This document shows, one piece after another, positions 1 through 5,279 of a stretch of 5,279 nt of DNA. This DNA comes from Lentisphaerota bacterium (lineage in GTDB: Bacteria > Verrucomicrobiota > Kiritimatiellia > JAAZAB01). Below the pieces are notes generated by a model. That model had not been told where the DNA came from. It ran no database searches and saw only the letters and a program-made list of their open reading frames with translations. Numbering within the stretch: position 1 is the stretch's first letter; each line of letters starts with the position of its first letter. The stretch covers positions 1 to 5,279 of the forward strand of contig JACPGN010000022.1 in NCBI GenBank assembly GCA_016182435.1. The letters run 5' to 3'. A program made the translations under genes and the position numbers.

Positions 1-189
1 GAAAACCTGCTGGTGACCGATGCCATCCGGCGCCTGGTCGTCGAGCGCGCCGCGGCCAATGTGATCAAGCAAAAAGGGCTGGAGCAGGGCATGCAAACCC
101 TGCGGGACGACGGCTGGGTGAAAGTCCGCGAGGGCACGACCACGATTGAGGAAGTCCTGCGCGTGACCGAGGAAGAAGAAAATGCCTAA
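1..189 (+). CDS. gspE: Type II secretion ATPase GspE, C-terminal end (5' truncated by window)
   Basis: Frame 1 is open from the first base to the TAA at 187-189, giving the last 62 residues of a longer protein. The tail contains VTDAIRRLVVERAA, then GMQTLRDDGWVKV and finally GTTTIEEVLRVT. This is the standard ending of GspE/PilB-type secretion ATPases, where the 'G-x-T-T-x-E-E-V-L-R-V-T' motif closes the C-terminal domain. The family forms a cytoplasmic hexamer whose ATP hydrolysis drives pseudopilus assembly through GspF. The Walker A, Asp and Walker B boxes and the tetracysteine zinc site lie upstream of the window and cannot be checked. The stop overlaps the gspF start by 8 bp (182-189), which suggests translational coupling. 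PilB of a type IV pilus would have a similar tail, but the downstream GHIJK set makes GspE the better call. Confidence 0.93.
   Translation, partial: ENLLVTDAIRRLVVERAAANVIKQKGLEQGMQTLRDDGWVKVREGTTTIEEVLRVTEEEENA
169..173 (+). promoter_or_regulatory. Shine-Dalgarno for gspF inside the gspE 3' end
   Basis: GAGGA lies 8 nt before the ATG at 182, within the Glu-rich codons that end gspE. It supports the 182 start of gspF and reinitiation after gspE translation. Confidence 0.6.
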
Positions 190-1423
190 GTTCAGCTATA
201 CGGCCCGCACGCGCACGGGTGAAAAGGTTGAAGGCGCGCTGGAGGTCTCCGACCGCCGCGCGGCGCTGCTGCATATCGAGCGCCTGGGCCAGGTGCCGGT
301 GAAGGTTGAAGAAAAACCCGCCGAGCAGCCCCATCCTAAAGCTACGGGCTGGCGCGCGCTTTTTTCCCGCCGCGACCGCCGCCAACGGATGGGCGCCCGC
401 GACCTGCTCAACTTTACCAGCGAGCTGAGCGACTTGCTGGCCTCCGGCATGAAGCTGGGCAACGCGCTCAACACGCTCGCGCGCCGGCGGACTTCCAATT
501 CCACCGACTATGTCGTGCGCGCGCTGCGGGATGAAATCATCCGCGGGGCAAGTCTTTCGGAGGTGATGGGGCAGTTCAAGGACACTTTTCCTACTTTGTA
601 TGTCAGTCTGATTCGCGCCGGGGAAGCCAGCGGCAACCTTTCGGAAGTTATGGGGCGAATCATCAAACATTACGAGCGCATCCAGGAAGTCAAGGAGAAG
701 GTCGTAATGGCCCTGGTGTATCCGGTCATCGTGATGGTCGTGGGCATTGCCACGCTGATCTTTGCCATGACGTTTGTGATTCCGCGCTTCACCCTGATTT
801 TCAAGGACCTGGACAGCACCCTGCCGGTGCCTACGCGCATCCTGATCGGCCTCAGCGCAGCCATGATTCATTATGGCTGGCTGATAGCGATTGGTCTGGT
901 AATAGCCGTGATCCTGTTCCGCCGCTTTCTGCGCACGGAAGCCGGGCGGGTCTGGTGGCACGGGTTTCAACTGCGCGTGCCGCTGATCCGCAATATTATC
1001 ACCTCCAGCGCGTTTGCCCAGTTTGCCCGCACACTGGGCATGCTGATCGGCAATGGTGTGCCCGTGCTGGACGCCCTGCACATCAGCGAACATACTGTGG
1101 CGAACTCGGTAATTGCCGCCGAAATTCATAATGCCCGCGACCGCGTGACCGATGGCACGACGATTTCAGGCCCGCTGGCCGCCGGCAAGGTGTTTCCGCC
1201 CATGCTGACCGATATGCTGGCCATCGGCGAGGAAACCGGCGACATGAGCGGCGCCTTGGCCCACATTGCCCGGCGCTATGAGGCTGACCTGGACCGTGGC
1301 GTGAAAATCTTCACCACGATGCTGGAGCCGATCCTGATCGTGCTGATTGCCGTCGTTGTCGGGTTTGTGGCCATCAGTATTCTGCTGGCGGTCTTTGATT
1401 TGACCAGCGGGTTAAGGGCGTAA
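182..1423 (+). CDS. gspF: Type II secretion inner-membrane platform protein GspF
   Basis: A 413-residue protein of normal length for GspF, which sits in the inner membrane and couples the GspE ATPase to pseudopilin insertion. The N-terminus (MPKFSYTARTRTGEKVEGAL, then a VSDRRAALLHIERLGQVPV stretch) is the usual small cytoplasmic domain. Two T2SSF repeats follow, at about 73-201 and 276-398. Their matching motifs are FPTLYVSLIRAGEASGNLSEV (about 136-156) and FPPMLTDMLAIGEETGDMSGA (about 338-358). Hydrophobic segments are at about 174-200, 219-246 and 380-404, the expected three-span topology. A charged linker at about 43-72 (KPAEQPHPKATGW, then Arg-rich) is variable in the family. The ATG at 182 has a good Shine-Dalgarno and overlaps the gspE stop. 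PilC is the alternative family assignment, disfavoured by the neighbouring minor pseudopilin genes. Confidence 0.97.
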   Translation: MPKFSYTARTRTGEKVEGALEVSDRRAALLHIERLGQVPVKVEEKPAEQPHPKATGWRALFSRRDRRQRMGARDLLNFTSELSDLLASGMKLGNALNTLARRRTSNSTDYVVRALRDEIIRGASLSEVMGQFKDTFPTLYVSLIRAGEASGNLSEVMGRIIKHYERIQEVKEKVVMALVYPVIVMVVGIATLIFAMTFVIPRFTLIFKDLDSTLPVPTRILIGLSAAMIHYGWLIAIGLVIAVILFRRFLRTEAGRVWWHGFQLRVPLIRNIITSSAFAQFARTLGMLIGNGVPVLDALHISEHTVANSVIAAEIHNARDRVTDGTTISGPLAAGKVFPPMLTDMLAIGEETGDMSGALAHIARRYEADLDRGVKIFTTMLEPILIVLIAVVVGFVAISILLAVFDLTSGLRA

Positions 1424-1435
1424 GGGCGTGGCCTG

Positions 1436-1463
1436 CCCACCGAGGCGCTTTGGCGTAGGTGGG
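1436..1463 (+). repeat. Inverted repeat just after gspF
   Basis: CCCACC (1436-1441) pairs with GGTGGG (1458-1463), and an inner CGC/GCG pair (1446-1448 with 1453-1455) closes a TTTG loop. The stem begins 13 bp after the gspF stop. There is no T-tract, so a Rho-independent terminator is not supported. The local text GCCTGC...GGCGTAGGTGGG partly resembles the inverted repeat in the 5' part of gspH (GCCTGC...GAGCGTAG...GGGCAGGC at 2179-2214), so the two may be relics of one repeat family. Confidence 0.5.
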
Positions 1464-1484
1464 AGCGTAGAGCGTTGAGCGGGG
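1464..1484 (+). repeat. Heptanucleotide array, AGCGTRG type, F-G gap
   Basis: Three consecutive 7-nt units are readable: AGCGTAG, AGCGTTG and AGCGGGG. The same consensus recurs after gspG (2063-2083), so this is a shared repeat rather than chance local composition. It lies in the 230-bp gap between gspF and gspG, directly after the inverted repeat and before the palindromic element. Confidence 0.65.
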
Positions 1485-1493
1485 CGTTTGACT

Positions 1494-1570
1494 GTCATTC
1501 CCGCGCAAGCGGGAATCCAGGATCAGGGTAAAACAAATCCTTTCTGGATTCCCGTTTTCACGGGAATGAC
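1494..1570 (+). mobile_element. 77-bp MITE-like palindromic element with 27-bp terminal inverted repeats
   Basis: Arms 1494-1520 and 1544-1570 are inverted copies that match at 24 of 27 positions, around a 23-nt spacer. Each arm is itself a perfect 8-4-8 hairpin: ATTCCCGC-GCAA-GCGGGAAT (1497-1516) and ATTCCCGT-TTTC-ACGGGAAT (1548-1567). Both fit the 20-bp ATTCCC-N8-GGGAAT pattern known as the dRS3 repeat in Neisseria, and similar 'ATTCCCG...CGGGAATCCAG' pairs are common in other bacteria. No coding capacity and no clear target-site duplication are visible. In the transcript it would form either one long hairpin or two short ones between gspF and gspG, which could affect mRNA processing. That role is inference. 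Confidence 0.75.
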
Positions 1571-1641
1571 GGAATAGGCGAGTATATGCGTGCCCACAGT
1601 GCTATGCACAGCATTACCTGCTTGTCGGAAAGCACACACAT

Positions 1642-1646
1642 AGGAG
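1642..1646 (+). promoter_or_regulatory. Strong Shine-Dalgarno of gspG
   Basis: AGGAG lies 7 nt before the ATG at 1654. It is the clearest ribosome binding site among the pseudopilin genes here. This fits GspG being the major subunit needed in excess over H, I, J and K. Confidence 0.75.
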
Positions 1647-1653
1647 ACATTGC

Positions 1654-2052
1654 ATGAATACAATTAAACAAGACGCATCCCGGTCGGGGTTCACGCTGAT
1701 CGAAGTTCTGCTGGTGGTGGTCATCATCGGCATTCTGGCGGCCGTTGTGGTGCCGCGCTTGTCGGGACGGGTGGGCCAGTCGCAAACCTCCGCCGCTAAA
1801 ACCAGCATTGCCAGCATCAGCCTGGCCCTGGACCTCTACGAAACCGACAATGGCAATTATCCGGCCAGTCTGCAGTCCCTGCTCACCAAGGGCGGCGAGG
1901 ATAACTGGCGCGGACCCTACCTGAAAAAAGCGGAAATTCCGCGCGACCCCTGGCAACGCGAATTCGTCTATACAGTCAGGGAAAACGGGTATGAGCTCAG
2001 GTCCGCCGGCCCCAACGGCTCGACGGGTGATAGCGATGACATCACCAACTGA
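1654..2052 (+). CDS. gspG: Major pseudopilin GspG
   Basis: A 132-residue prepilin with a normal 12-residue leader (MNTIKQDASRSG) and a class III cleavage site G12|F13. The mature form starts FTLIEVLLVVVIIGILAAVVV, with Glu17 at mature position +5. The hydrophobic helix spans about 13-34. The globular part has LALDLYETDNGNYPASLQSL, then WRGPYL (about 85-90), DPWQREFVY (about 98-106) and a C-terminal ELRSAGPNGSTGDSDDITN. These are the conserved GspG elements, including the acidic loop near the C-terminus that binds calcium in characterised GspG proteins. GspG polymerises into the periplasmic pseudopilus after GspO/PilD cleavage and methylation. The start at 1654 is fixed by a strong AGGAG. It lies 230 bp after gspF and 37 bp before the first possible gspH start. 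At 120 mature residues it is slightly short but complete. Confidence 0.97.
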   Translation: MNTIKQDASRSGFTLIEVLLVVVIIGILAAVVVPRLSGRVGQSQTSAAKTSIASISLALDLYETDNGNYPASLQSLLTKGGEDNWRGPYLKKAEIPRDPWQREFVYTVRENGYELRSAGPNGSTGDSDDITN

Positions 2053-2062
2053 GCAACCGTAA

Positions 2063-2083
2063 AGCGTGGAGCGTATAGCGTGA
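2063..2083 (+). repeat. Heptanucleotide array, AGCGTRG type, G-H gap
   Basis: AGCGTGG, AGCGTAT and AGCGTGA follow one another without gaps, 11 bp after the gspG stop. The consensus matches the array after gspF (1464-1484). The GTG proposed as the first gspH start (2090) lies just downstream. Confidence 0.7.
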
Positions 2084-2089
2084 GCCATT

Positions 2090-2719
2090 GTGAACGGGAA
2101 TAAAATAGTCAAGAGTAAAGAGCTATATAGTGTAATGGGTCAGTTATTGGAGGTCGGCGATCCCAATGGCCTCAGCCCGCCTGCAACGCTGAGCGTAGCA
2201 CTGCGGGCAGGCAAGCTGAGGCCCTACGTAGGGCGCGACCTCGTGTCGCGCCATTTTACCCCCTCAGCATTCACGCTTATTGAGATCCTCATGGTCATCG
2301 TGATAATGGGCATTGTCGCGGCGATTGCCCTGCCGTCCTTTGTGCGTTCCTTTCAGGGCCAGCGCTTGAGCACGGCGGCGCGGACGCTCGCTACGGTTAC
2401 GCGCTATGCCCGCAGCATGGCCGTGCTCAAGCAGAGCGACCTGGAACTGACCTTCAACCTGGCCAACGGCCAGATTGACCTGGTCTCTTCCAACACGAGT
2501 CTGCCGAGTTTTTCGCGGTCGGTATCCGGCGTCCGGCTGCAGGAAGTGGCCCTCGAGGGCGCCGAGCCGATAATGGAGGGCGTAGGCCGCGTGGCCTTTC
2601 TGCGCAACGGGGTCTGTAGCCCGTTTGTGGTTACGCTGATGGATCGGCAGGGGAACTATGTGATCATGAGCGTAGACGCCCTTGGCAGCGTGAAGTCGAA
2701 AGTGTATGGAGCGCAATAG
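2090..2719 (+). CDS. gspH: Minor pseudopilin GspH (start uncertain)
   Basis: The frame is open from the GTG at 2090 and encodes 209 residues. The pilin part starts at SA|FTLIEILMVIVIMGIVAAIALPSF: Phe61 would be mature +1, Glu65 +5, and about 149 mature residues follow, normal for GspH. Downstream, TVTRYARSMAVLKQSDLELTF and the C-terminal LMDRQGNYVIMSVDALG fit the GspH family, a minor pseudopilin near the pilus tip. The residue before the cut is Ala60 where Gly is the rule. From 2090 the leader would be 60 residues, far longer than usual, and it is encoded by repeats (2107-2252). Other in-frame starts are ATG 2135 (45-residue leader) and GTG 2243 (9-residue leader MSRHFTPSA, with AGGG at 2230-2233 as a weak ribosome site). 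The 2243 start looks most like a normal leader but lies in a REP-like hairpin. The gene identity is firm and the start is not. Confidence 0.88.
   Translation: MNGNKIVKSKELYSVMGQLLEVGDPNGLSPPATLSVALRAGKLRPYVGRDLVSRHFTPSAFTLIEILMVIVIMGIVAAIALPSFVRSFQGQRLSTAARTLATVTRYARSMAVLKQSDLELTFNLANGQIDLVSSNTSLPSFSRSVSGVRLQEVALEGAEPIMEGVGRVAFLRNGVCSPFVVTLMDRQGNYVIMSVDALGSVKSKVYGAQ
2107..2134 (+). repeat. Degenerate heptanucleotide array, AGTMAAG type, in the gspH 5' region
   Basis: AGTCAAG and AGTAAAG, then the weaker AGCTATA and TAGTGTA, run in a 7-nt phase. The stretch is A+T-rich, unlike the surrounding genes. It would encode part of the long gspH leader if translation starts at 2090. The last two units are too diverged to be certain. 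Confidence 0.4.
2168..2223 (+). repeat. Large inverted repeat in the gspH 5' region
   Basis: GGCCTCAGCCCGCCTGC (2168-2184) pairs with GCAGGCAAGCTGAGGCC (2207-2223) at 15 of 17 positions. The loop holds a small ACGC-TGA-GCGT hairpin (2186-2196). The element abuts a 14-bp perfect palindrome, GCCCTACGTAGGGC (2221-2234), and the REP-like unit beyond it. It lies inside the gspH open frame but upstream of the pilin domain. Confidence 0.7.
2228..2255 (+). repeat. REP-like unit 1 (GTAG + hairpin)
   Basis: GTAG at 2228-2231 is followed by the perfect hairpin GGCGCGAC-CTCGT-GTCGCGCC (2232-2252) and then ATT. A GTAG foot 5' of a hairpin is the layout of REP sequences mobilised by REP-associated (RAYT) transposases. 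The loop (CTCGT) and trailing CAT resemble the loop (CTCCGT) and GAT of the units at 2760-2838. The GTG at 2243, a candidate gspH start, overlaps the loop. Confidence 0.6.
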
Positions 2720-2758
2720 CACCTTGAACACCCGGTACCGTCATAAATAACAAGAAAT

Positions 2759-2839
2759 TGTAGGAGCGCCACCCCGCTGGCGCGATGCCTGCCCGAGCGT
2801 CGGCCAGGGAGATCGCCTCGACGGAGCGAGGCTCCTACA
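2759..2839 (+). repeat. Inverted pair of 28-nt REP-like units between gspH and gspI (BIME-like)
   Basis: The ends TGTAGGAGC and GCTCCTACA are perfect inverted repeats. Unit A (2760-2787, + strand) is GTAGGA, stem GCGCCA/TGGCGC, loop CCCCGC, then GATG. Unit B (2838-2811, - strand) is GTAGGA, stem GCCTCG/CGAGGC, loop CTCCGT, then GATC. Both are 28 nt with a 6-bp stem and a 6-nt loop. The stems differ in sequence but still pair, which is compensatory change. The 23-nt linker contains CCGA-GCG-TCGG. The pair fills much of the 176-bp gap between gspH and gspI, and the rest of that gap has no visible gene. It resembles the bacterial interspersed mosaic elements formed by paired REPs. A role in transcript stability or attenuation is possible, but no T-tract follows. 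Confidence 0.75.
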
Positions 2840-2895
2840 TTTGTTTCGGTTGCGGGCATAGCCCGCGTTGGTACTGATCCAATCAGGCATATCCG

Positions 2896-3348
2896 ATGTT
2901 CAAATCGAAAATCGAAAATCCCGCTATGAGCGGGACAAGTCGAAAACTTGTGGCGCATTGTGCGCCATCGAAAATCCTGGTTTCCCCGGGCTTCACGCTG
3001 GTCGAAGCCGTGATCGCGCTGGCGATCCTGAGCATCGGCATTTTTGTGATTATCGAGGCCACGGCGCGCTGCCTGGCGGTGATCCGCTCCTCGCGTAATT
3101 ATCAGACGGCCCGCACGGTGCTCGACCGGGGCGAGGCCGAATTCCCCCTCCAGAGCACCAACGCGGTGGAGGATAATACTGTTGCCGCAACGGAATACGA
3201 GCCGGGCTATAGTTTTGAGCGGGAGCTGGAAGAGGTGGACGGCGAGAAGAAGCTTTATGTGGTCAAAACCCGCGTGACCTGGTCGGAATCCGGCCAGGGC
3301 TCGGTGGAAGAGTTGGTCAGCTATCTCTATTTTCCGAACGAGGAATAA
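2896..3348 (+). CDS. gspI: Minor pseudopilin GspI
   Basis: A 150-residue prepilin with cleavage site PG32|F33. The mature start is FTLVEAVIALAILSIGIFVI, with Glu37 at +5, a hydrophobic helix to about residue 53, and the ATARCLAVIRSSRNYQTA stretch after it. FTLVEAVIALAIL with a short globular domain of about 118 mature residues is characteristic of GspI, which nucleates the tip complex with GspJ and GspK. The leader from ATG 2896 is 32 residues (MFKSKIENPAMSG...). ATG 2926 (22 residues) and GTG 2950 (14 residues) are in-frame alternatives. None has a convincing Shine-Dalgarno. The leader DNA consists of TCGAAAA heptamers and three abutting hairpins (2919-2967). ATG 2926 forms the loop of the first. 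The gene is 96 bp upstream of gspJ. Confidence 0.93.
   Translation: MFKSKIENPAMSGTSRKLVAHCAPSKILVSPGFTLVEAVIALAILSIGIFVIIEATARCLAVIRSSRNYQTARTVLDRGEAEFPLQSTNAVEDNTVAATEYEPGYSFERELEEVDGEKKLYVVKTRVTWSESGQGSVEELVSYLYFPNEE
2905..2975 (+). repeat. TCGAAAA heptamers in the gspI leader
   Basis: TCGAAAA occurs in direct tandem at 2905-2911 and 2912-2918, then as TCGAAAAC at 2940-2947 and TCGAAAAT at 2968-2975. Translated, the tandem part gives SKIEN. The first two copies and the last flank the triple hairpin. Confidence 0.6.
2919..2967 (+). repeat. Three abutting 17-nt hairpins in the gspI leader
   Basis: TCCCGCT-ATG-AGCGGGA (2919-2935), ACAAGT-CGAAA-ACTTGT (2935-2951) and TGGCGCA-TTG-TGCGCCA (2951-2967) are perfect palindromic stems with 3-, 5- and 3-nt loops. 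Each is 17 nt and consecutive stems share a single boundary base. They lie in frame in the gspI leader coding region. Confidence 0.8.
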
Positions 3349-3354
3349 GCGCGG

Positions 3355-3435
3355 CAGTTCACAGTTAGACAGTTCACAGTTTCCACCACAGGCGGATCAG
3401 CCTGCGGCTGACACAGTTCAGAGTTCAACGGTTCA
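3355..3435 (+). repeat. CAGTTCA heptamer array with central hairpin, I-J gap
   Basis: CAGTTCACAGTT is repeated exactly at 3355-3366 and 3370-3381. After a hairpin, CAGTTCA (3414-3420), GAGTTCA (3421-3427) and ACGGTTCA (3428-3435) follow. The hairpin is TCAGCC-TGC-GGCTGA (3397-3411). The array occupies nearly the whole 96-bp gap between gspI and gspJ and leaves only a weak AAGG (3435-3438) as ribosome site for gspJ. Confidence 0.75.
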
Positions 3436-3444
3436 AGGTTATTC

Positions 3445-4299
3445 ATGAATTCCCAACGAAGAACGACTATAGCCAGAGGCCAGAGGTCAGAAGTCAGAGG
3501 TCAGAGGTCGGATCAGAGTCTGGCGTCCGGTGTCTGCTATCCGGCGTCTGGTTTTACCCTGATCGAATTACTCGTGGCCATTGCGCTCTTGGCTATGGCT
3601 ATGGCCATGACCTTCACGACTTTCTACAGCGTGATCAAGGCCTGGCAGCGGGGCACGGCCATGGCCGCCGATCTCGATCATGGCGAGTTTGTGATGCAAC
3701 AGATTACCTACGGCCTGCGCTCGGCTTTCTTTCCGCCTGCTGTCGCCGCCGCTACGGCCACCAATGCCGCTGCCACTAACGCGGCCGCCACCAATGCCGT
3801 GGCGACGGCCGCGCCCGCCATGGGTGGCCGATACGGGTTTGTGCTGGAAGATCATGGCGCGGGCGCCGGCGCCCAGGACATCATCAGTTGGGTTAAAACC
3901 GGCACCGCTCTCCTGGGCCTGAACGATCCCCTCTACAAGGGCTTGCACCGGGTGCAGCTCTCGATCGAAGACGATGGCGACTCAGGGCCGGCCGTAGCCG
4001 TGCGGGCCTGGCGCCCTTACGCCAATCCGATTGATTTCGATCCGGCCGAGATTCCTCCCCGATTTATTTCCAGTAAAGTTGTGGGAATGGATTGCCGCGT
4101 GGCCAGGGAAATGAAGGATGGCCAATGGGATTGGCTGGAGGTCTGGGAAGATGAGGCCACCAACTGCCTGCCGCTGGTGGCGGAAATAACCCTTTACCTG
4201 GAGCCCCTGGACCCCGGCGAGCTGCCCGTTGAAGTCCGGCGCACTACGGAAATTCCCATCGCGCCCTTATCGTGGAGCAGCGTTCAAAAGAAGCCATGA
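3445..4299 (+). CDS. gspJ: Minor pseudopilin GspJ
   Basis: A 284-residue prepilin with cleavage site SG36|F37. The mature start is FTLIELLVAIALLAMAMAMT, with Glu41 at +5, followed by FYSVIKAWQRG and an extended globular domain of about 248 mature residues. Length and position between gspI and gspK fit GspJ, the larger tip partner of I and K. The ATG at 3445 is the only ATG, GTG or TTG I find in this frame near the pilin domain, preceded by a weak AAGG. The 36-residue leader is therefore probably real. It contains RGQRSEVRGQRSDQ, the translation of a heptamer array. A low-complexity insert of three ATNAA-type pentads lies at about 105-119, and the rest of the globular domain has no identifiable motif. 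The stop overlaps the gspK start as ATGA. Confidence 0.93.
   Translation: MNSQRRTTIARGQRSEVRGQRSDQSLASGVCYPASGFTLIELLVAIALLAMAMAMTFTTFYSVIKAWQRGTAMAADLDHGEFVMQQITYGLRSAFFPPAVAAATATNAAATNAAATNAVATAAPAMGGRYGFVLEDHGAGAGAQDIISWVKTGTALLGLNDPLYKGLHRVQLSIEDDGDSGPAVAVRAWRPYANPIDFDPAEIPPRFISSKVVGMDCRVAREMKDGQWDWLEVWEDEATNCLPLVAEITLYLEPLDPGELPVEVRRTTEIPIAPLSWSSVQKKP
3474..3508 (+). repeat. Five tandem CAGAGGT heptamers inside the gspJ leader
   Basis: CAGAGGC, CAGAGGT, CAGAAGT, CAGAGGT and CAGAGGT follow one another exactly, and a weaker CGGAT-CAGAGT extends to about 3519. Because 7 is not a multiple of 3, the array cycles through all frames and always reads (QRSEVRG)n with no stop. It lies between the start codon and the pilin domain. 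Confidence 0.85.
3757..3801 (+). repeat. Three 15-nt repeats encoding ATNAA pentads in GspJ
   Basis: GCCACCAATGCCGCT, GCCACTAACGCGGCC and GCCACCAATGCCGTG are in-frame repeats with mostly synonymous differences. They make a flexible Ala/Thr/Asn-rich insert just after SAFFPPAVAA. The flanks continue Ala-rich. Confidence 0.75.
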
Positions 4300-5279
4300 A
4301 AGCAGACGACAGAGGACAGATGACTGAAGACCAGATACCAGAGATCAGAGATCAGAGGTCAGATCAGAGGCTGCCGTCCGTCGTCCGTTGTCCCTACTTC
4401 GCCAAGGCTTCGCAGGACAAGCCGTCTTCCTCAGTCTTGCGTCCCGCGCAACGCGGGATAAATCCGTCGCTTGCCACGCGTCCCGCGTGGTCCGTCGTCC
4501 GTCCGCAAGGCGGCGCGGCGCTGATCGTGGTCTTGTGGGTCGTCGGGCTGCTGGCGCTCTTCGTCATGGCTTTTGCTTTCGATATGCACATTGAGACTCG
4601 GATTACCTCCAGTTGGCGCAAGAAGCTCAAAGCCGAATACCTGGCCCAGGCCGGCTTTGAGCTGGCCCGCATGATTCTTTTTGAAACCGCCGACCCCGAC
4701 GTTAACAACCCCGATACCTCCATTTACCTGGGCAAAGGCTCGGACGAGAACGTGCGCGGCGCCGCCATTTCACTCGCCCGGGGCGGCGTGGCCGAAGTGA
4801 CGCGCGAGTTGGGCGCCGGCTCGCTCTCCCTCAGCGTCCGCCCCGAAAATGCGCGGATCAACTTGAACAACATAATTTTTGTTAATGACCGGGAGCGCAC
4901 CTATATCACCTGGCAGCCGCTCTTTGAGGCCGCCGGGGTTCCCTGGGAACAGTGCGATGCCCTGGTTGATTGCCTGCTCGATTGGGTGGACCAGGATGAG
5001 CTTACCCATCTGAACGGGGTTGAATCATCATATTACGAGAGCTTGGATCCGCCCTACCAGTCCAAGAACGCCGCCCTGGACACCGTGGACGAGCTGGCCC
5101 TGATTAAAGGGTTTGACGAGAAACTGCCGGAGTCGGACGTCAGCATTTACCAGGCTATATCAGGATTTCTGACGACCTACGCGACCGACGAAAAGATCAA
5201 CATCAATGCCGTGGATCGCAACACCATCATTGGTTTTCTGGGAATTGACGCGGCGCTGGCGGATGAAATCATTGCCGAA
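4296..5279 (+). CDS. gspK: Tip minor pseudopilin GspK (3' truncated by window)
   Basis: The frame is open from ATG 4296, which overlaps the gspJ stop (ATGA), to the window edge: 328 residues. The pilin start is QGG73|AALIVVLWVVGLLALFVMAF. GspK normally lacks the +5 Glu, as here. KAEYLAQAGFELARMIL (about 110-126) follows, then LLDWVDQDELTHLNGVESSY (about 227-246), NAALDTVDELALIKG (258-272) and KININAVD (about 300-307). These are hallmark GspK motifs of the large two-lobed domain that caps the I-J-K tip. From 4296 the leader is 73 residues, built from a heptamer array and a hairpin module. ATG 4320 (65 residues) and TTG 4437 (26 residues) are the only other in-frame starts I found. No strong Shine-Dalgarno is seen, so coupling to gspJ is likely. 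The C-terminus and any gspL/M lie beyond the window. Confidence 0.93.
   Translation, partial: MKADDRGQMTEDQIPEIRDQRSDQRLPSVVRCPYFAKASQDKPSSSVLRPAQRGINPSLATRPAWSVVRPQGGAALIVVLWVVGLLALFVMAFAFDMHIETRITSSWRKKLKAEYLAQAGFELARMILFETADPDVNNPDTSIYLGKGSDENVRGAAISLARGGVAEVTRELGAGSLSLSVRPENARINLNNIIFVNDRERTYITWQPLFEAAGVPWEQCDALVDCLLDWVDQDELTHLNGVESSYYESLDPPYQSKNAALDTVDELALIKGFDEKLPESDVSIYQAISGFLTTYATDEKININAVDRNTIIGFLGIDAALADEIIAE
4310..4370 (+). repeat. Heptanucleotide array, CAGAKRA/TCAGAGR type, in the gspK leader
   Basis: Units in 7-nt phase: CAGAGGA, CAGATGA, CTGAAGA, CCAGATA, CCAGAGA, TCAGAGA and TCAGAGG, then TCAGA and TCAGAGG. The sequence resembles the gspJ-leader array (3474-3508) and is purine-rich. 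Translated it gives ...DQIPEIRDQRSDQR. Confidence 0.75.
4376..4502 (+). repeat. Hairpin module bounded by 13-nt direct repeats in the gspK leader
   Basis: GTCCGTCGTCCGT occurs at 4376-4388 and again at 4490-4502. The 114-bp offset is exactly 38 codons, so both encode SVVR in frame. Between them lie two 17-nt perfect hairpins of 7-3-7 layout: TCCCGCG-CAA-CGCGGGA (4442-4458) and CCACGCG-TCC-CGCGTGG (4474-4490). The module ends just before the Gly-Gly cleavage region of GspK. Confidence 0.8.

Follow-up and report, generated by a model that had tools for sequence, protein, structure and literature searches.

Heptad Arrays in a Lentisphaerota Type II Secretion Operon: Probable Ends and Remnants of Small S23 Hairpin Elements

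Tandem arrays of seven-base words (heptads) lie at the gene junctions of a type II secretion (gsp) operon in a Lentisphaerota bacterium (assembly GCA_016182435.1, contig JACPGN010000022.1). The stretch analyzed, hereafter the window, comprises positions 1 to 5,279 of the forward strand of that contig and holds a piece of the operon, the end of gspE followed by gspF, gspG, gspH, gspI, gspJ, and gspK. Our preferred reading, to which we give a probability of roughly 0.8, is that the arrays are the ends and remnants of small hairpin elements carrying a gene of the S23/IVP family (PF05635). Such elements have until now been known mainly as inserts in ribosomal RNA (rRNA) genes; prior hints of a wider pattern are the heptamers in the intervening sequence (IVS) of Coxiella and the paired heptamers of Geobacter.

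Genes and Arrays at the gsp Locus

All of the genes are read on the forward strand. The product of gspF (182..1423) matches PF00482 (T2SSF, E 3e-50), and its closest relatives on genome contigs come from Kiritimatiellota, Lentisphaerae, and Verrucomicrobia assemblies, the nearest, 91% identical, from another gsp locus (L002). The gene gspG (1654..2052) matches PF08334, and TIGR01710 above its cut-off. Three pseudopilin genes follow, named gspH, gspI, and gspJ from weak matches and position; the end of gspE was assigned from position alone. The gspH-like gene (2090..2719; PF12019 and PF07963) has a long stretch upstream of its prepilin motif, and its start codon is uncertain. The gspI-like gene (2896..3348) and the gspJ-like gene (3445..4299) both match PF07963 and fall under the cut-offs of the GspI and GspJ models, respectively; the leader of the latter is mostly translated heptad array. 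The last gene, gspK (4296..5279; PF21687 T2SSK, frame read from 4272), continues past the window end.

With the five gsp junctions pooled, self-agreement is high at lag 7 (z = 8.6) and lag 14 (z = 4.4), compared with z = -2.2 at lag 6 and 0.8 at lag 8, whereas the coding remainder of the window is positive at lags 3, 6, 9, 12, and 15 and negative at lag 7. An earlier reading of this DNA from its letters (the sequence-only reading) had placed period-7 arrays at every junction from F-G to J-K. That statement stands for four of them, whose best local lag-7 scores (F-G 9, H-I 12, I-J 22, and J-K 21) were each reached by none of 500 shuffles of the same junction; the G-H junction is weak, its best score of 6 being reached by 25 of 500 shuffles. 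By plain autocorrelation the G-H (3.6), I-J (7.4), and J-K (7.6) junctions stand out, with F-G at 1.3 and H-I at 0.4. Tandem Repeats Finder (TRF) gives period-7 rows at 1463-1481, 2902-2920, 3355-3381, 3474-3509, 4303-4324, 4328-4363, and 4375-4393.

The arrays, all written as on the forward strand, begin at the F-G junction with about three copies of GAGCGTA (1463..1484), found by TRF and present in L002 too. The weak G-H junction holds an AGCGTRG array (2063..2083) and an AGTMAAG block (2107-2134; score 6). An AAATCGA array lies within the leader-coding start of gspI (2902..2920). Between gspI and gspJ, a CAGTTCA array (3355..3381) resumes as CAGTTCA/CGGTTCA (3414..3440) beyond a palindromic insert at approximately 3382..3413. 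In L002, which lacks the insert, the array is uninterrupted; because that counterpart is unbroken and some 30 nt of palindromic DNA lies inside the window's copy, the two blocks look like one array. A TCAGAGG array (3472..3509) and a degenerate GTCYGGC array (3513..3552) follow. The gspK leader carries a composite array, CAGACGA and then TCAGAGR (4303..4370), followed by a CGTCCGT array (4375..4393) and a second short one, GTCCGTC (4486..4503).

Each junction had been credited with its own consensus, and the words do differ between junctions except that AGCGTRG occurs in two of them and TCAGAGR in two (I-J and J-K). The words are also less unrelated than had been proposed: 58 of 61 have a neighbor word one base away, compared with a null mean of 69-73% and a maximum of 85%. 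We dropped the idea that freedom from stop codons is a selected property. Words that are stop-free on both strands make up 55.7% of the 61; the share is 55.1% when the letters are shuffled and 67.5% among background 7-mers. For words stop-free on at least one strand it is 91.8%, compared with 89.6% and 94.4%, with no excess readability.

Heptads in Related Genomes

Sampled relatives of the window's species were used for a genome-wide test, in which lag-k arrays with a score of at least 12 were counted for k = 6, 7, and 8 (handles beginning with G, C, and L denote genomes, contigs, and loci of our collection). The counts were 1/9/1 in G001 (276 kb, including L002), 2/14/1 in G002 (399 kb), 3/47/2 in G003 (400 kb), 0/38/1 in G004 (228 kb), 0/14/1 in G006 (113 kb), and 2/11/0 in the more distant G020 (400 kb), so that the genome-wide excess of period 7 over 6 and 8 anticipated by the sequence-only reading holds in the sampled relatives. 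Sampling was not blind: nine of the 20 G004 contigs, all four from G003, and three of the four from G002 had beforehand been seen to bear TCAGAGG, and G001 C1-20, G006 C1-15, and G020 were chosen without prior knowledge of arrays, save for a few of the G006 contigs.

The 47 arrays of G003 comprise 22 distinct words, and array lengths in this genome peak at 31-32 nt (32 of 84). Single words recur at many sites. Three tandem copies of AATGCAG (at most two mismatches, overlaps counted) have 100 matches in G003, 77 in G004, and 67 in G006, and the reversed pattern has none; BLAST with AATGCAG and GTTCTTG arrays hit many separate places among the matches listed, with spans of 31-35 nt that are limited by the query array and do not prove fixed ends.

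Period-7 arrays might arise by replication slippage, in which a polymerase footprint near 7 nt makes arrays from any seed in unconstrained DNA. PMC4679880 attributes this proposal to Mrazek 2007, together with the observation that, among the longer simple repeats of many bacterial genomes, those with a heptanucleotide unit are the most frequent. Period 7 dominates in G020 as well, although most words there are different ones, which fits slippage, as does array density, which is 0.324 per kb in intergenic DNA and 0.037 per kb in the middle of open reading frames (ORFs). How the arrays are arranged relative to one another, described below, does not.

GACGAC-type heptad arrays were seen in 15 of 387 genomes of the phylum (including G242, G363, G251, G178, and G269), and the reversed control in 5. 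We also considered prepilin genes as a special target, as an array lies nearby at 13 of 21 prepilin ORFs and 72 of 1354 others; this was rejected, four of the loci having been picked via the window's operon and not being independent.

Inverted Pairs and Their S23 Genes

Pairing of word-sharing neighbors was tested with 348 arrays (score at least 9) from five genomes. Arrays that share a word and lie less than 400 bp apart are inverted in 32 cases and direct in 6, as against 71 and 113 at distances of 0.8-20 kb (Fisher p 2e-7); counting only non-overlapping nearest pairs less than 500 bp apart, 36 are inverted and 6 direct, where slippage would lead one to expect no preferred arrangement. The arms also keep a fixed polarity. 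Between pairs of one family, 91 comparisons (not independent of one another) gave the same polarity and 6 the opposite, five of these six tracing to one composite array in L003. Six inverted pairs have loops that measure 364-473 nt (G006 C61, G003 C16 twice, G004 C236 and C280, and G006 C6), and each of the six encloses a match to PF05635.

Starting from the protein side, we inspected 27 of the 40 PF05635 matches from five genomes, ORFs being called by a simple longest-frame rule. A strict heptad test (inverted pair, at most 160 nt) is passed by 15 of these 27 S23 loci and by 1 of 412 other ORFs of 90-200 amino acids (p 1e-19). In a period-free test, with flank windows measured from the two ends of the ORF and not of the domain match, inverted flanks occur at 39 of 52 S23 loci (20 of 27 in Kiritimatiellota and 19 of 25 elsewhere) and at 7 of 375 control ORFs (p 9e-37). 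The best flank period is 7 at 38 of the 52. Predicted RNA folds of three elements have the heptad stem closing the element.

The S23 protein of L073 matches PF05635 (E 3.5e-31) and TIGR02436. Structures are available of S23 relatives, namely 2gsc (profile E 7e-29) and 2rld, each with five chains. We know of no catalytic motif in S23. Substitutions between close S23 gene pairs are concentrated at third positions (e.g., 3/2/24 and 12/1/24), a pattern indicative of purifying selection on the protein. At L246 and L247 the S23 gene has an internal stop codon and the arrays are kept on both sides, as expected of decaying elements.

Inverted pairing, fixed polarity, the same word at many sites, and arrays flanking one protein family are all unpredicted by slippage. 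The inverted pairs, the polarity, and the S23 link led us to reject slippage alone as the main cause, and we regard it as an unlikely explanation of the arrays; it may still set array copy number. The sequence-only reading had preferred one common process acting on different seeds to the spread of one repeat family. We do not find this preference supported. Words recur at many places, the pairing of arrays is inverted and keeps a fixed polarity, and an S23 gene is present in the versions with long loops, so that several repeat families seem to have spread.

Repeat families of this form recall REPINs, which are paired repetitive extragenic palindromic (REP) sequences mobilized by REP-associated tyrosine transposases (RAYTs). 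REPINs as we know them and the arrays have in common inverted pairs, short loops, solo copies, and fixed polarity, and dispersed short inverted-repeat pairs, a REPIN-type trait, are present here; our pairs, by contrast, have arms built of tandem heptads and enclose an S23 gene in place of a transposase gene. If a RAYT/Y1 transposase acted in trans on REPIN-like elements and S23 were a passenger, this would account for inverted short-repeat pairs with loops of 20-400 nt and for solo copies, and one Y1 gene of G003 has an array pair nearby (L169). G001-G004 and G006 together have 10 Y1 matches, however, and of the four whose loci were read three lack a heptad array, whereas in a REPIN/RAYT system the cognate Y1 gene would lie between copies of the repeats. 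Nor do Y1 counts follow the arrays, with none in G006 (a draft genome), 2 in G003, and up to 21 in relatives without AATGCAG arrays. On these counts and loci we rejected the transposase, and consider this origin very improbable.

Words, Probable Remnants, and Turnover

Returning to elements that carry S23 themselves, close relatives of the protein use the same word. Pairs of S23 proteins scoring at least 165 bits and lying at different sites share their word in 11 of 11 cases (permutation mean 0.47, maximum 4), compared with 17 of 801 pairs below 165 bits; 8 same-site pairs were left out of this comparison, and its cut-off was set after a test at 60 bits (see below). Arrays without the gene resemble the arms of those with it. 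Among inverted pairs with loops shorter than 340 nt, 29 of 30 agree with the arm of an S23 element and have its polarity (p 6e-8). Of 125 further arrays 104 match an S23 arm, compared with 25% when units are scrambled, 60 of 185 arrays having been excluded as arms or as identical to arms.

The window arrays were likewise scored against S23-element arms, with ten scrambled controls each. The TCAGAGG array, a solo arm of the left-arm type, scores 28 against the element at L114 (scrambled maximum 13.5). The composite array of the gspK leader scores 25.5 against the arms of L247 and L245 (maximum 19.5), the AAATCGA array of gspI, a word of the GATTTTC/AATCGAA family, 18 against L257 (maximum 16), and the second CAGTTCA half 14 against L243 (maximum 9.5). 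Both the GTCYGGC and the CGTCCGT arrays have words of the GACGACA family, the latter of the right-arm type, and score 14 (maxima 11 and 11.5, respectively). The first CAGTTCA half (8.5; maximum 12.5) and the GTCCGTC array at 4486-4503 (12.5; maximum 13) are not above their controls. We read the window as solo ends and remnants of several S23 hairpin element families, IVS-like and outside rRNA, and its gsp junctions and prepilin leaders as having gathered the ends of at least three such families.

Orthologous junctions differ among the relatives. At one junction of a pilus-type cluster, G003 has a GTTCTTG pair, G004 a GGCCGTA pair, and G002 an AACTGAT array, and in G001 the junction is empty. 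A second has AATGCAG in G003 and G002 and GATTTTC-type words in G006, G004, and G001. At a third, G003 and G006 carry an S23 element, and G004 has a short GAACCAAGAAC scar. The sequence-only reading had asked whether consensus words differ between strains at one locus; between the related species, the same junction does carry different words.

These junctions also bear on the idea that the arrays are intercistronic RNA hairpins selected for regulation, in which heptads keep the arms complementary while the words drift. Both arms do change together between species at one junction, the predicted stems are long, and on plasmids the arrays begin 2-14 nt past the upstream stop codon at 8 of 11 array-bearing loci (of 15 with a same-strand upstream gene). 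Selected regulatory hairpins fit poorly with the empty orthologous junction in G001 and the scar in G004, and they leave the presence of S23 in all six of the 364-473 nt loop forms unexplained; we judge this explanation, too, to be unlikely.

S23 Elements in Other Phyla and in rRNA

We read 24 plasmid regions and one viral contig (the plasmid records with S23 matches numbered 21 and 41, in overlapping sets). Plasmid S23 genes with arrays occur in Cyanobacteriota, Bacteroidota, and Gemmatimonadota, and viral contigs yielded one S23 locus. Flank words include AGGGAAC in Nostoc edaphicum, GGTTTAA in Riemerella, AGGGTGT in Calothrix, and TCAGAAG/TCAGGAG in Nostoc and Trichormus; a group with period 8 includes Gemmatirosa, Tolypothrix, and one Nostoc. 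Period 8 is best at L278, L279, L280, L269, L270, and L283 (e.g., AGGGCAGG in Gemmatirosa). The arrays around the S23 gene at 601-960 of L263, AAAAGCT/AAAAGCC with at least 10 units per side, are mainly in direct orientation. Array-flanked S23 genes also occur within CRISPR-cas operons of cyanobacterial plasmids, at L263 and L276 (cas6 - S23 - cas4) and L270 (cas10 - S23 - cmr3); in Kiritimatiellota, the ORF that follows S23 at L251 and L255, which have no array pair, is one that we take to resemble Cas4.

One S23 copy, that of Azospirillum lipoferum, lies inside a large subunit (LSU) rRNA gene (RF02541, 610 bits), and its ends are GACGGATGACAGAGGACGGAGGAC and an inverted partner, GAC-type heptads of the kind of word found in Kiritimatiellota. 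Rfam at gathering scores on L073, L278, and L282 gave LSU rRNA in L282 and nothing else. Elsewhere the neighbors of the elements are annotated protein genes, in most plasmid regions, or ORFs, in Kiritimatiellota, rather than rRNA.

The 23S rRNA IVSs of Leptospira and Coxiella share with the elements described here a PF05635 ORF between complementary ends. Complete elements in the relatives have both the S23/IVP ORF and the complementary long-stem termini of an IVS, and the window remnants lack the ORF. The elements differ from IVSs in lying between protein genes, in having several word families per genome, and in their many gene-less copies. According to the passages of PMC4990558 used here, the Coxiella IVS is 428 nt long with a 28-bp stem and has three or two GACAGAT heptamers, depending on the strain, before the S23p ORF; the same passages describe a Xanthomonas S23p relative as a homopentameric toroid and the S23/IVP family as one without known function. 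No genome-wide link between S23 and heptads was found in the open-access literature searched, in which that paper was the one precedent seen.

Heptamers have been reported elsewhere in other terms. The paired heptamer of Geobacter, TCAGRAK, belongs to one word type with the TCAGAGG array of the window and with the TCAGAAG/TCAGGAG arrays beside the Nostoc and Trichormus S23 genes, and its four site classes are annotated as mostly paired; in the passages at hand they are interpreted as regulator sites and given no S23 link. Cyanobacterial short tandemly repeated repetitive (STRR) sequences, which are heptanucleotide repeats, resemble the arrays in being tandem heptamers between genes, as do the TAACTGA repeats of Beggiatoaceae, described in PMC4679880 as simple repeats or possible translational signals. 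The S23 family also appears related to Avd of diversity-generating retroelements, the match to the Avd model NF033474 (E 9.5e-11, 41.9 bits) being below the model cut-off of 80; PMC10053308 compares the structures 4DWL and 2GSC. A broader generalization, to which we give even odds, is that S23/IVP rings read tandem heptads with one word per subfamily, that the hairpins are widespread intergenic mobile elements of which rRNA IVSs are a special case, and that the cyanobacterial, Geobacter, and other heptad repeats are gene-less remnants.

A Model of the Elements

A complete element is about 430-530 nt long and consists of a left array of about four to five imperfect heptads, often directly behind the stop codon with which the upstream gene ends, the S23/IVP gene, and a right array that repeats the left one in inverted orientation. 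The S23/IVP product is a ring-forming four-helix-bundle protein, and the RNA or single strand can fold through the inverted arrays into a long terminal stem. Copies that lack the gene, seen as inverted pairs with short loops, would together with solo or nested arrays occupy gene junctions and, within the gsp operon, also prepilin-leader coding stretches, where the extra codons would be lost when the leader is removed. We infer that the elements are mobile as units; because S23 is an apparent relative of Avd, a partner reverse transcriptase for movement is possible. The S23 pentamer may bind the heptad array at about one heptad per subunit, and by analogy with 23S IVSs, RNase III might cut the heptad stem in mRNA and so separate the expression of neighboring genes.

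Several observations weigh against this account. No S23 gene was seen in the window, no partner for the F-G and G-H words (AGCGTRG and AGTMAAG) was found among the S23-element arms compared, and a possible short-loop pair in J-K (4375-4393 with 4303-4324) has poor complementarity (6.5). An inverted pair at L115 with a 510 nt loop has no PF05635 match, and other pairs with gaps of 500-800 entered the analysis as counts. Inverted flanks are missing at 13 of the 52 S23 loci, of which 4 match better in direct orientation; the best period is 8 at 8 of the 52; L251, L253, and L255 have no array pair; and the 39 of 52 with inverted flanks are to be read knowing that the loci are partly dependent (8 same-site pairs) and that the control ORFs come from Kiritimatiellota stretches only. 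Just 7 of 26 plasmid and viral S23 ORFs pass the strict test, on plasmids partly because arrays sit in annotated reading frames or have period 8. S23 genes occur in 28 of 29 relatives, and their copy number is unlinked to array richness, G025 having 18 and the array-rich G003 5. No target-site duplication was seen by eye in the orthologous junctions compared, and the authors of PMC4990558, in the passages used, consider Coxiella S23p probably not made in vivo. S23 arms have four cores in 28 of 69 cases and five in 20, which weakens the idea of one heptad per subunit; exactly five heptads as a fixed size was rejected and survives as a hint only. Finally, S23 pairs of at least 60 bits share a word in 18 of 229 cases, within the permutation range (mean 9.2, maximum 22). 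A word-protein link at all distances is therefore unsupported; the link holds among close S23 relatives and fades quickly with distance.

The proposal joins two old puzzles, the abundance of heptanucleotides and the role of the S23/IVP family. Should every S23 protein recognize a heptad word of its own, natural protein-array pairs would make the family immediately accessible to tests. The proposal would also give a mobile-element origin to arrays annotated as regulator sites or slippage products and would explain why leader peptides and gene junctions change rapidly in secretion operons.

Other Hairpin-Like Inserts

The F-G junction of the window contains an inverted pair, GTCATTCCCGCGCAAGCGGGAATCCAGG / CCTTTCTGGATTCCCGTTTTCACGGGAATGAC (1495-1573), that forms a separate hairpin with unrelated ends. 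Unrelated hairpin-like inserts also lie at the junction that in G003 holds an S23 element, at L239 1713-2001 (G001) and L237 545-728 (G002; GCGAAA-type repeats). Another dispersed-looking element, with TAGGAATTT ... GGCCTAATTTAA-like ends, is found at about L001 11820-12020, L002 11250-11390, L042 12530-12660, and L073 550-650; in L001 and L073 it lies in the loop of a heptad pair. A GC-rich palindromic insert at 4391-4430 of the window has the in-frame translation FAKASQDKP, and similar inserts (PPERYAQASERR and PPERFAQARERR) occur within prepilin leaders of G003, at L072 8599-9396 and 12528-13118.

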